NCBI GenBank assembly: GCA_949879025.1
Contig: CATLBO010000005.1
Coordinates: 1 to 64,000, forward strand
DNA length: 64,000 bases
Direction of reading: 5' to 3'
Source: an uncultured Hungatella sp.
GTDB taxonomy: Bacteria; Bacillota; Clostridia; Lachnospirales; Lachnospiraceae
Shown here: positions 8,565 to 14,257 of the stretch, piece after piece
Numbering within the stretch: position 1 is the stretch's first letter
Layout: the number at the start of each line of letters is the position of its first letter
Made by a program: the position numbers and the translations under genes
Notes under the pieces: model-generated
Seen by the model: the letters and a program-made list of their open reading frames with translations, nothing else
Databases searched by the model: none
Told to the model about the DNA's origin: nothing

Positions 8565-10187
8565 CTATTCTTCTGCAACCATGTTTCCCCGCAGCTTTAT
8601 CGCAAACAGAACTCCCACCATCAGCAAAATACCTGTGGGAAGAGCAATCCAGGCGCTCTGCACAAAGCCAGCAACAATATAGGTTACAAAAGATACTGCC
8701 GCAGCAGCCACTGCATAGGGCAGCTGAGTCGTCACATGGTTCACATGTTCGCACTGGGCTCCCGCTGAGGCCATAATCGTAGTATCAGAAATAGGGGAAC
8801 AGTGATCTCCGCACACTGCCCCTGCCATACATGCAGAGATGGATATGATCATCAGCTGCGGATTGCTGTTCTGGAACACTGCCACAACAATGGGAATCAG
8901 GATTCCAAAGGTTCCCCATGAAGTCCCTGTGGCAAATGCCAGAAGACATCCCACCACGAAAATAATCGCAGGGAGGAAATTAAGGAATCCCTTTGCGCTG
9001 GCCTCCACCATGCCTGCCACATACACATCCGCCCCCAGGCTGTCTGTCATGGCCTTTAAAGACCAGGCAAAGGTCAAAATCATAATGGCGGGAACCATGG
9101 CTTTAAATCCTTCGGGTATACAGGCCATACATTCAGAAAATTTTAATATGCGGCGGATCTGATAAAGGCCGATGGTAATCAGCAGTCCGAAAAAGCTTCC
9201 GTATGTGAGACCCAGGGAGGCATCTGATTCTGAAAATGCAGTGACAAAATCTGTCCCTGCGAAGAATCCTCCTGTATACAGCATTCCGATGACACAGCAG
9301 ATAATCAGGGAAATAATGGGAATCAAAAGGTCTATTACCGTTCCCTTCGCTTCCACAACTTCATCCTTTGCCAAGCCATATGGACGCCCTGGCGTTGTGT
9401 ACAGATCTCCCTTCAGCGCATTGGACTCATGAATCTTCATGGTTCCGAATTCCTCTTTCATAAGAACCATGCCCACCATCATTACGATGGTCAGGATGGC
9501 ATAAAAATTGTAGGGGATCGCCCGCATGAAAATGGAAAATCCGTCCTCTCCCTCTACGAATCCCGTGACTGCCGCTGCCCAGGAAGAAATAGGGGCGATG
9601 ATGCATACTGGAGCCGCCGTAGCATCAATCAGATAAGCCAGTTTAGCCCTGGACACTTTAAATTTATCTGTTACAGGTCTCATGACGCTTCCCACTGTAA
9701 GGCAGTTAAAATAATCATCAATAAAAATCAGAACCCCCAGAAGGATGGTTGCCAATTGGGCTCCTACCCGGTTGTGAATCTTGGAAGCAGCAAACTGCCC
9801 GAAAGCAGCAGAACCTCCTGCTTTGTTCATCAGGCACACCATAGCTCCCAGAATTACCAAAAAGACCAGGATGCCTACATTATAGCTGTCAGACAGGGAG
9901 CCAATGATTCCGTCCTCAAAAATATGGGTAATGGTCATCTCAAAATTAAATCCTGAATACAGAAGACCTCCCATCAGAATTCCCACAAACAGGGAACTGT
10001 AGACCTCCTTGGTAATCAGGGCCAGGCCAATGGCCACAATGGGCGGCACCAGAGCCCAGAATGTGGAATACATAACCGGCACATACTCTGTCTCCTCCTC
10101 GGCAGCCAAGACCGTAATACAGCAGGCCAGGGCCAAAAGGAAAGCAGCCGCAATCGTGCCAAAAGCTTTCTTCTTTGTCATGTACAT
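8565..10187 (-). CDS. NhaC family transporter, probable lysine-regulated LysW-type
   Basis: NhaC-type multi-TM protein (GDHCSPISDTTIMASAGAQCEHVNHVTTQLPYA); preceded by a lysine riboswitch. Confidence 0.9.
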   Translation of the reverse strand: MYMTKKKAFGTIAAAFLLALACCITVLAAEEETEYVPVMYSTFWALVPPIVAIGLALITKEVYSSLFVGILMGGLLYSGFNFEMTITHIFEDGIIGSLSDSYNVGILVFLVILGAMVCLMNKAGGSAAFGQFAASKIHNRVGAQLATILLGVLIFIDDYFNCLTVGSVMRPVTDKFKVSRAKLAYLIDATAAPVCIIAPISSWAAAVTGFVEGEDGFSIFMRAIPYNFYAILTIVMMVGMVLMKEEFGTMKIHESNALKGDLYTTPGRPYGLAKDEVVEAKGTVIDLLIPIISLIICCVIGMLYTGGFFAGTDFVTAFSESDASLGLTYGSFFGLLITIGLYQIRRILKFSECMACIPEGFKAMVPAIMILTFAWSLKAMTDSLGADVYVAGMVEASAKGFLNFLPAIIFVVGCLLAFATGTSWGTFGILIPIVVAVFQNSNPQLMIISISACMAGAVCGDHCSPISDTTIMASAGAQCEHVNHVTTQLPYAVAAAAVSFVTYIVAGFVQSAWIALPTGILLMVGVLFAIKLRGNMVAEE

Positions 10188-10319: not shown

Positions 10320-10344
10320 TGTGTTAAAACCTGGAACCTGACAA

Positions 10345-10507
10345 CACAGATAGCGCTCCACATACGTGACAGTACGCCGCATATTCTGCGTCGTCCCAGA
10401 ACCTTATGCCTGAACCGGCAAAAAGCCCTTCGGCGAAATCCCCTTTCTCAGGAAACAGCGGTTCAGCTATGATCCCCTGATACTCTTGAATCCCGCACCT
10501 CTATCAT
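10345..10507 (-). ncRNA. Lysine riboswitch (L box)
   Basis: Minus strand: GATAGAGGTGCGGGATTCAAGAGTATC ... AAGGGGATTTCGCCGAAGG ... TACTGTCACGTATGTGGAGCGCTATC; P1 GATAG/CTATC and the L-box core motifs are present. Confidence 0.95.
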
Positions 10508-10713
10508 GTTAAAATGTTTGCGGTTATTTTTATCTCGTTTATTCTATCATGACTTTCCCTAAAAGGGAAGCATATTTGCGGATCTTTTTCTTCATTTTCC
10601 AGACACCGGCTGCAAAGCGGCTGCAAAAAGATGGCTGCGAGTATTGCGTACCGGTCTGATTTAGAATATAATAAAAACAGTTACTTATTTTATGGATTGT
10701 TGGAGTGTGAAAA

Positions 10714-12314: not shown

Positions 12315-12358
12315 ATTATGCCCTGCAGCCAGCCTTTTGGCCGACTGCAGGGCATAAT
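12315..12358. terminator. Hairpin between the convergent fapA-like and rtcB genes
   Basis: Perfect 14-bp inverted repeat ATTATGCCCTGCAG / CTGCAGGGCATAAT; no clear T-tract on either strand. Confidence 0.5.
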
Positions 12359-13569
12359 CACTCTTCCCCTGCTTTAAAATTATAGATTGGTTTAATCACT
12401 TTCTCAATCTTTGCCGTATCCCCAATATTTTCCACAATGTCTTCCATGCCTTTATACGCCATAGGGCATTCATCCAGCGTCTGGGCATTGACTGATGTGG
12501 TAAAAATCCCGGCCATCTCTTTCTTAAACTGAGAAACCGTGTAGGACTCCTTTGCTTTCCTTCTGGACATCAGCCTTCCAGCCCCATGAGGAGCCGAGCA
12601 AGTCCACTCCTCATTTCCCTTGCCTATGCAGATCAGGGAACCGTCTCTCATATTAATGGGAATCAGCAGTCTTTCCCCTTTCTCTGCCGAAACTGCCCCT
12701 TTACGCAGAATCATGGTATCGGTGTCTATATAATTGTGTATGGTTGTAAATTCCTCTTCTATCTTAAGCTTCATTCCCCGTATCAGCTCATCCATCATGG
12801 CTTTTCGGTTTAACATGGCAAATCTCTGTACGATTTTCATGTCATGGATATAGTCATCCATAAGTTCTCCATGACAATAAGCCAAGGCTTTGGGAACTTC
12901 CGTCTTCACCTGAGCTTTCATTGCCTCCATCGCAGCTTGAATCTCCTGCTGTCTCCCTGTCCTCTTATAATTCTCAATCCGCTTTTTTATGTCCTTTCTG
13001 GAAACGCCGCTGAGAGACCTATGAGCCTGCTCCTGATAATACTCTGCCACCTCAAGCCCCAGATGCCGGGAACCTGAATGGATCACCACATACAGATTTC
13101 CCTCCTCATCCTTATCCACTTCTATAAAATGATTCCCTCCGCCCAGAGTTCCCAGGGATCTTACCGCACGGTCCATATGAATCCTGGCCGGCCTTAGGCA
13201 CCGAAGCTGTGTCAGATCAATGTCATCATTCCGCTTATGGGCCTTATCCCGAACCGCAAACCCTGACGGAATCTTCTCATAAATCAGCTTATCCAGCTTT
13301 TCCAGTTCCAGATGCCTGCCCCGCAGCCGTATGGTTTCCATGCCGCACCCAATGTCCACACCTACCAGATTTGGAACCACCGCATCCCTTATGGTCATGG
13401 TAGTTCCAATGGTGCACCCCGCTCCTGCATGAACATCCGGCATAATGCGGATTCTGGAACCTTTTGCAAATTCCTGATCACACAGCGCCTTAATCTCTCC
13501 AAGAGCCGTATCCTCCACCACATCCGTATACACTTTTGCAGTATTATATAATCCTTCCACAAGTTTCAT
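12358..13569 (-). CDS. rtcB: RtcB family RNA ligase
   Basis: IMPDVHAGAGCTIGTTM, GVDIGCGMETI, GGGNHFIEV, HSGSRHLG, SAPHGAGRLMSR motifs. Confidence 0.96.
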   Translation of the reverse strand: MKLVEGLYNTAKVYTDVVEDTALGEIKALCDQEFAKGSRIRIMPDVHAGAGCTIGTTMTIRDAVVPNLVGVDIGCGMETIRLRGRHLELEKLDKLIYEKIPSGFAVRDKAHKRNDDIDLTQLRCLRPARIHMDRAVRSLGTLGGGNHFIEVDKDEEGNLYVVIHSGSRHLGLEVAEYYQEQAHRSLSGVSRKDIKKRIENYKRTGRQQEIQAAMEAMKAQVKTEVPKALAYCHGELMDDYIHDMKIVQRFAMLNRKAMMDELIRGMKLKIEEEFTTIHNYIDTDTMILRKGAVSAEKGERLLIPINMRDGSLICIGKGNEEWTCSAPHGAGRLMSRRKAKESYTVSQFKKEMAGIFTTSVNAQTLDECPMAYKGMEDIVENIGDTAKIEKVIKPIYNFKAGEE

Positions 13570-13757
13570 ACTTGCTTCATCTCCTTTTCTCTGATCCTAT
13601 CCAGTTTTTTCCTTTTTTCATTTATATGCCGCACTTTGGCCCTGGGAATATATTTGCCGCATTTCTGGCAATAATGGGCATGAGATGCCTCTCTGCCTTT
13701 TTTACACTGCCCTGCTGACACATAATACATACACACGGTTTCCCTATAACGTGCCAT
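13566..13757 (-). CDS. Small Cys-containing (zinc-ribbon-like) basic protein coupled to rtcB
   Basis: 63 aa: MARYRETVCMYYVSAGQCKKGREASHAHYCQKCGKYIPRAKVRHINEKRKK...; ATGA overlap with the rtcB start. Confidence 0.75.
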   Translation of the reverse strand: MARYRETVCMYYVSAGQCKKGREASHAHYCQKCGKYIPRAKVRHINEKRKKLDRIREKEMKQV

Positions 13758-13826
13758 ATCCTTTTTCTCCTTCTAATCCTTTTTTATTCTGTCTCTGCGT
13801 CTTCTGCTGTCTTCAGGCAAATAAAA

Positions 13827-13874
13827 ACAGAGCCGGCATCTGACAGCGCTGCTGCCAAACTTCATCGGCTCTGT
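13827..13874 (-). terminator. Intrinsic terminator ending the transcript that carries the 14003-14113 small ORF
   Basis: ACAGAGCCG...CGGCTCTGT 9-bp stem followed by TTTTTATTTG on the minus strand. Confidence 0.65.
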
Positions 13875-13902
13875 ATGGTTTCTTCTCTGTCCTTTTACAG
13901 CC

Positions 13903-13938
13903 GGCAGCATAATGGGAACATCTGTCCATCATGCTGCC
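13903..13938 (-). other. Strong hairpin in the 3' region of the small-ORF transcript
   Basis: GGCAGCAT-x-ATGG ... CCAT-x-ATGCTGCC, 12 bp with one 1x1 internal loop. Confidence 0.6.
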
Positions 13939-14002
13939 TGCTTCCTATAACCTGCAGGGTTTCCTGGCATTCTCAAATCATGTGCGGTGCTGCGCATCCG
14001 AC

Positions 14003-14113
14003 TTAAACAAAGAGAATCTCGCCAGAAACTGCTTCCAGGCTTTGCCAAAGGCATGATACTGCGTTCCCTATCCAATTATGAACTTTTACTTTTCTGTTAT
14101 TCAGCCGTTTCAT
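14003..14113 (-). CDS. Small ORF, 36 aa (MKRLNNRKVKVHNWIGNAVSCLWQSLEAVSGEILFV)
   Basis: AAAGGAAAGGAG RBS before ATG; TAA stop at 14003; below the size cut-off of the supplied ORF track. Confidence 0.5.
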   Translation of the reverse strand: MKRLNNRKVKVHNWIGNAVSCLWQSLEAVSGEILFV

Positions 14114-14257
14114 AGCAATTCTCCTTTCCTTTTATTTGGATATGCCGCTGTCTGCACTCCTTAGGTTATAATCTACCACATTTCCTTATTCTGGTAAAGA
14201 AACTTTCCATTACACAAATCTTACATGATTCTTACAATTGTTACATCCGTAAAAACA

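Follow-up and report, generated by a model that had tools for sequence, protein, structure and literature searches.

An ORF-bearing leader upstream of the zf-rtcB operon in an uncultured Hungatella sp. is a probable transcription attenuator

The window, a 64,000-nt stretch of DNA from an uncultured Hungatella sp. (GenBank:CATLBO010000005.1, positions 1 to 64,000), carries on its minus strand an operon consisting of zf and rtcB, with capA directly upstream on the same strand. Examination of the window sequence and its list of ORFs located a 36-codon ORF between capA and zf, preceded by AAAGGAAAGGAG-N7-ATG and followed by a hairpin (P2, 13 bp, arms at 13926-13938 and 13903-13915) and an intrinsic terminator, the stem of which (about 13827-13874) runs into TTTTTATTTG (Table 1). 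A sequence-only reading had described a 36-aa ORF with a strong ribosome-binding site, a possible -10 element upstream, a hairpin at 13903-13938 and a terminator at 13827-13874, and had suggested a self-contained short transcript specifying a small protein, a dual-function sRNA or a leader peptide. The ORF and both structures were found with the sequence and at the coordinates described, and the -10 element proved to be TAGATT (14170-14175), to which a conserved -35 element, TTTACC (14193-14198), situated 17 nt farther upstream, can now be added.

Table 1. Features of the leader region and the operon in the window
Feature	Position	Strand	Evidence or remark
Triple direct repeat TGTAAG-N5-TGTAAG-N5-TGTAAT	14209-14236	-	Kept in about eight aligned leaders including that of the window, with differing upstream genes
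Sigma-A type promoter TTTACC-17-TAGATT	14170-14198	-	-35 and 17-nt spacing kept in aligned relatives
P1 5' arm: Shine-Dalgarno (SD) AAAGGAG, start codon and codons 2-3	14107-14127	-	Pairs with ORF end in 10 of 10 leaders tested
Leader ORF, 36 aa, MKRLNNRKVKVHNWIGNAVSCLWQSLEAVSGEILFV	14003-14113	-	SD-led ORF in 12 of 13 leaders (exception, G016); dN/dS about 0.2 in near relatives; column-shuffle P<2e-4
Segment 1, UAUCAUGC, around the Cys21 codon, inside the ORF	14051-14058	-	Complementary to P2 5' arm
P1 3' arm: final ORF codons	14009-14029	-	Alternative local or downstream hairpin also possible
P2 hairpin, GGCAGCAUGAUGG / CCAUUAUGCUGCC	13903-13938	-	Covariation at columns 7-40, 8-39 and 14-33 of alignment A1
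GGC tail of P2 3' arm	13900-13902	-	Unpaired within P2; invariant in 11 leaders of A1
Intrinsic terminator, proposed attenuator	13823-13874	-	5' arm ACAGAGCCGAU 13864-13874; 3' arm 13827-13837; U-tract 13823-13827
zf, 63-aa zinc-finger-like protein, first operon gene	13566-13757	-	Without Pfam/NCBIfam assignment
rtcB, RNA ligase, controlled gene	12358-13569	-	Pfam PF01139, E=2.8e-65

The triple TGTAAG-type repeat lies 5' of the promoter with an 11-bp period; it was the sole perfect match in the genome, the runner-up having 2 mismatches. The consensus of the WalR/VicR box is TGTWAH-N5-TGTWAH. The repeat resembles this box in its TGTAA-type direct half-sites and 11-bp period, but differs in having three repeats and in that two half-sites end in G and are off consensus. 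By its sequence, it is probably a site for an OmpR-family response regulator. The string TGTWAH-N5-TGTWAH is used in PMC4168254. It was also noticed that a related triplet, TGTAAC/TGTAAA/TGTAAC, is present at another locus (L130), close to a gene encoding a secreted CAP-domain-like protein. In G049, a genome of another genus, the counterpart of the promoter was TTTACA-17-TATATT.

By itself, the 36-codon ORF is unremarkable compared with chance. The 362-nt leader stretch folded better than all of 100 shuffled sequences (z -4.3), and promoter, SD, ORF, hairpin and terminator recurred jointly in relatives whose RtcB is as little as 64-75% identical. The same-genus relatives were found by DNA search, and a covariance model made of the hairpin plus the terminator was run on 26 genomes of the genus; the resulting sample comprises 13 leaders of this kind (type I), which are related to one another, and many of the genomes are metagenome assemblies. 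The full leader was present in nine of the 26 genus genomes, each with rtcB directly downstream; eight of them have zf-rtcB, and the ninth, G024, has rtcB and a broken zf. At the G024 locus (L004), zf has suffered an internal deletion and a frameshift, the leader and rtcB being kept. Further leaders were found outside the genus, in G049, at L023 (genome G752) and at L149 (G896). G015 (L005) has lost its rtcB operon along with the 3' half of its leader; the promoter and the ORF are left, adjoining capA, and similarity stops at the ORF stop codon. In G016, P2 and the terminator were kept and the ORF was absent. Since capA is upstream only in the nearest relatives and other genes take its place elsewhere, the leader module is independent of capA; the unit that is conserved is promoter, leader, (zf) and rtcB.

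The distance between the U-tract and the zf start codon was 23 nt in L023, 30 nt in G022 and 34 nt in G006, and in the window the terminator ends 65 nt before the next ATG, with no promoter predicted between them. Because 23-34 nt leaves no room for a promoter, the terminator must be conditional, with rtcB reached by read-through. When the covariance model (R1) was run across the family, the other matches, scoring 28-39 bits, lacked an rtcB in their vicinity and looked like unrelated terminators, several of them located behind a Cys-rich KTR-like ORF; they were set aside. A terminator with a AGAGCCGAUGA 5' arm was also observed after a Cys-rich KTR-like ORF at L105, L107 and similar loci of many Lachnospiraceae genomes, without rtcB; this look-alike is probably a chance resemblance or a mobile-element terminator.

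The zf family was found as well in phage-like contexts without rtcB, with members at L142, L143, L151, L152, L155 and L158. No leader of this type accompanied the zf homologs in the phage-like contexts of L142, L143, L151 and L152, and searches of plasmid and viral sequences with the 63-aa zf protein gave no matches.

Examination of the leaders revealed a chain of possible pairings. The first, P1, joins the SD and start region to the end of the ORF, with energies of -18.6 to -24 kcal/mol in 10 leaders compared with means of -7 to -11 for shuffled sequences (at most 1 of 500 shuffles being as good); for L149 the value was -13.1, matched by 0.008 of the shuffles. The 3' arm of G049 gave -20.3 with its own 5' arm versus -9 to -13 with the arms of other leaders, and the own-versus-cross-species permutation gave p=5e-5, a test that, like the other own-versus-cross permutations below, ignores phylogeny and uses pairing segments aligned by hand. 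In several leaders the P1 3' arm can pair alternatively with nearby or downstream sequence; no role is claimed for this pairing, because its form varies among clades.

Within the ORF, segment 1 (codons ~19-22) was more complementary to the P2 5' arm than any other stretch of the leader in nine of the 10 ORF-bearing leaders, G005 showing a tie and L023, with no clear pairing, being the exception. Compensatory changes were seen at 5 of 10 pairs in the hand-made alignment compared with 0-2 in slid controls, and the own-versus-cross permutation gave p=5e-5. In folding calculations with the SD and start codon masked, segment 1 was on the P2 5' arm at a probability of at least 0.82 in eight of 10 leaders, whereas P1 competed when they were unmasked; for L149, folding left segment 1 off P2. 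The conservation of Cys21 and its neighbours, Cys21 being the most conserved codon between the ORF ends, is apparently explained by this base pairing.

The 3' tail of P2 is in turn complementary to the terminator 5' arm. C-GGC after P2 and GCCGAU in the terminator 5' arm were invariant in 11 leaders, whereas the terminator 3' arm varied. The GGC tail and the preceding C are the proposed antiterminator strand, on the basis of these invariant bases and of one compensatory change, found in L149, where GGC in the P2 tail became AGC and GCCG in the terminator became GCUG (GUCAGC / GCUGAU). The own-versus-cross permutation gave p=0.09 for this pairing, because nearly all leaders are invariant there. 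Folding of the full-length RNA preferred P2 and the terminator in 10 of 11 leaders; with the P2 5' arm of the nascent RNA blocked, the predicted antiterminator probability was 0.37-0.66 in eight of the 11, but fell to 0.23 for the window, to 0.06 for G024 and to 0.01 for L023, which has a weak P2. Two other arrangements were considered and dropped: 1) a ribosome covering P2 from the stop codon was rejected as a general mechanism, the stop-to-P2 distance ranging from about 18 to 75 nt, and 2) a 5'UTR segment, GCGGCAUA, able to pair with the P2 3' arm was present in the window but not conserved.

The locus thus has an SD-led leader ORF, a terminator ahead of the gene with no intervening promoter, and an upstream pairing that overlaps the ORF. 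We consider it rather likely, from comparison of sequences, that it serves the zf-rtcB operon as a leader acting in cis and works by leader-ORF transcription attenuation. Ribosomes moving along the entire ORF would mask segment 1, P2 would form and the terminator would halt transcription (OFF). If a ribosome were to stall within the initial codons, it would hold P1 open and leave segment 1 free; segment 1 would then take the P2 5' arm and the P2 3' tail would take the terminator 5' arm, allowing read-through into zf-rtcB (ON). In an untranslated leader, P1 may keep the switch OFF, or may lock it ON if P1 and the segment 1 pairing coexist as a pseudoknot. The input is likely to be translational distress, a condition producing RtcB substrates; candidate triggers would be broken ribosomes or tRNAs, and antibiotics.

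Leaders of other kinds were also found before rtcB in Lachnospiraceae. Type II, unrelated to type I, was upstream of 11-12 of 30 fetched rtcB loci, whose RtcB is ~50-55% identical to that of the window (L032, L033, L034, L038, L039, L040, L043, L046, L047, L048 and L052). It consists of a shared operator/promoter (TTATACCACAAGTATAATGACAA in most), the SD GGAAAGGA, an ORF of 39-50 codons and a terminator, ACCGCUUAUCUU...AUAGGCGGU, before rtcB; the ORF often has an SYK-like motif. In 10 of 11 loci the sequence most complementary to the terminator 5' arm was an ORF segment at codons ~28-38, which ranked second in L034, and the own-versus-cross permutation gave p=5e-5. Type III (L150, L154 and L156) has an ORF of 24-27 codons, an SD that pairs with the ORF end, and zf downstream of rtcB instead of upstream. 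Here the terminator 5' arm had its best complement at codons 11-20 in all three, with an own-versus-cross p of 0.17 for these three sequences. A mechanical criterion, namely an SD-led ORF and then a strong terminator at most 130 nt from the gene, by which an rtcB located behind zf cannot score, selected rtcB genes only: 6 of 35, compared with none of the 128 other genes at the same loci (p=7e-5). We tentatively suggest, with slightly less confidence than doubt, that three or more leader-ORF attenuators of independent origin may control rtcB in Lachnospiraceae, each with the antitermination strand within its own ORF; a failure of translation, through damaged ribosomes or tRNAs or translation inhibitors, would then turn on the repair enzyme directly.

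Alternatively, the attenuator may be controlled by a protein or ligand, with zf, RtcB or another factor binding P2 or the antiterminator and the ORF serving as a passenger or folding tuner. We regard this as unlikely, though it is favoured by G016, which keeps P2 and the terminator without an ORF, and by the zf protein, which is small, basic and Cys/His-rich and accompanies rtcB in two gene orders. Yet 12 of 13 leaders retain SD, start codon and an ORF, near relatives show a coding signal, and ORF-internal complementarity was found in two unrelated types of rtcB leader; in one of them, type II, no zf gene separates the leader from rtcB. Screening with the Rfam 15 covariance models, riboswitches and T-boxes included, gave no match to the leader at gathering score, and none of the nine leader-bearing loci had an Rfam match at E<=0.5 except for one tRNA outside the leader. 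Elsewhere in the window, a lysine riboswitch (Rfam RF00168, 97.7 bits) was located at 10343-10511 (minus strand); the gene downstream of it (8565-10187) encodes an NhaC-like antiporter/transporter.

A degree less likely again is a self-contained short gene, encoding a small protein or a dual-function sRNA, that stops at a terminator of its own while zf-rtcB forms another transcription unit. Its layout of promoter, ribosome-binding site, ORF and terminator is complete, G015 retains promoter and ORF despite the loss of rtcB, and the nearest relatives show purifying selection on the peptide: the dN/dS value that the sequence-only reading had called for was ~0.2 in the four nearest leaders, in which amino-acid conservation exceeded that of column shuffles and of alternative frames, in codons outside the RNA arms as well. 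In the next clade, however, the coding signal was weak (P=0.06), the ORF has lost its frame register with the conserved 3' motif in G006 and L023, which kept P1, and the ORF is missing from G016. For a stand-alone small protein, selection on the reading frame would be looked for in all relatives, and it was seen in the near ones only; the peptide may still have a role in trans as a small protein. Translation is probably conserved in most lineages and the peptide sequence probably only in some. Separate transcription is further opposed by the lack of promoter room past the terminator in L023, G022 and G006, and, within the genus, the full leader is always accompanied by rtcB, which argues, indirectly, against a stand-alone sRNA too. 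A self-contained transcript is therefore not upheld as the function, since the leader follows zf-rtcB whatever gene is upstream and lies, in those three relatives, with its terminator 23-34 nt from the next start codon; among the three options offered earlier, the leader peptide, travelling with the operon, is the one favoured. That the structure is an ordinary intergenic terminator of the adjacent, co-oriented capA with a chance ORF is very improbable, as its own promoter and structure are kept under different upstream genes and show covariation.

The preferred reading, a leader-ORF attenuator, has known parallels. According to the available part of PMC4191407, the bmrBCD leader of Bacillus subtilis likewise has a leader ORF (~50 codons) with the regulated genes downstream, its terminator has overlapping anti- and anti-anti-terminator elements resembling those proposed for the rtcB leader, and translation of the leader bmrB is required for induction by ribosome-targeting drugs. 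By the same part, it differs in that its target is an ABC drug transporter and its terminator is inside bmrB, whereas that of the rtcB leader follows the ORF; no counterpart of P1, in which the SD is paired with the ORF end, was seen there, and no sequence relation is claimed. With trp-type attenuators the rtcB leader would share a chain of mutually exclusive pairings that ends in a terminator or antiterminator and is decided by ribosome position, but it has no run of codons for a single amino acid, its target is RNA repair, and the strand proposed to free the antiterminator is part of the ORF. The same enzyme, RtcB, is encoded by the Salmonella rsr-yrlBA-rtcBA operon, which is expressed upon RNA damage and whose CARF-domain activator RtcR senses tRNA fragments (PMC7790460); the rtcB leader differs from this control in having a sigma-A type promoter and a probable attenuator. 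As the available part of PMC12606134 states, Rtc expression aids survival of E. coli under ribosome-targeting antibiotics. By analogy, it is reasoned that a translation-sensing leader would suit RtcB. No report of rtcB control by an attenuator, leader peptide or riboswitch was found in the open-access literature searched; control of rtcB by a translated leader is thus apparently undescribed, and its kind is most likely the leader-ORF attenuator already known.

These comparisons indicate that a small ORF resembling an unannotated gene can be chiefly an RNA device. The stem between SD and ORF end would be an unusual device tying initiation to the switch, and three unrelated leaders with the same logic before the same gene would, if true, be a clear case of convergence. 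If the leader does read the state of translation, it would name the signal for RtcB production in bacteria without RtcR.
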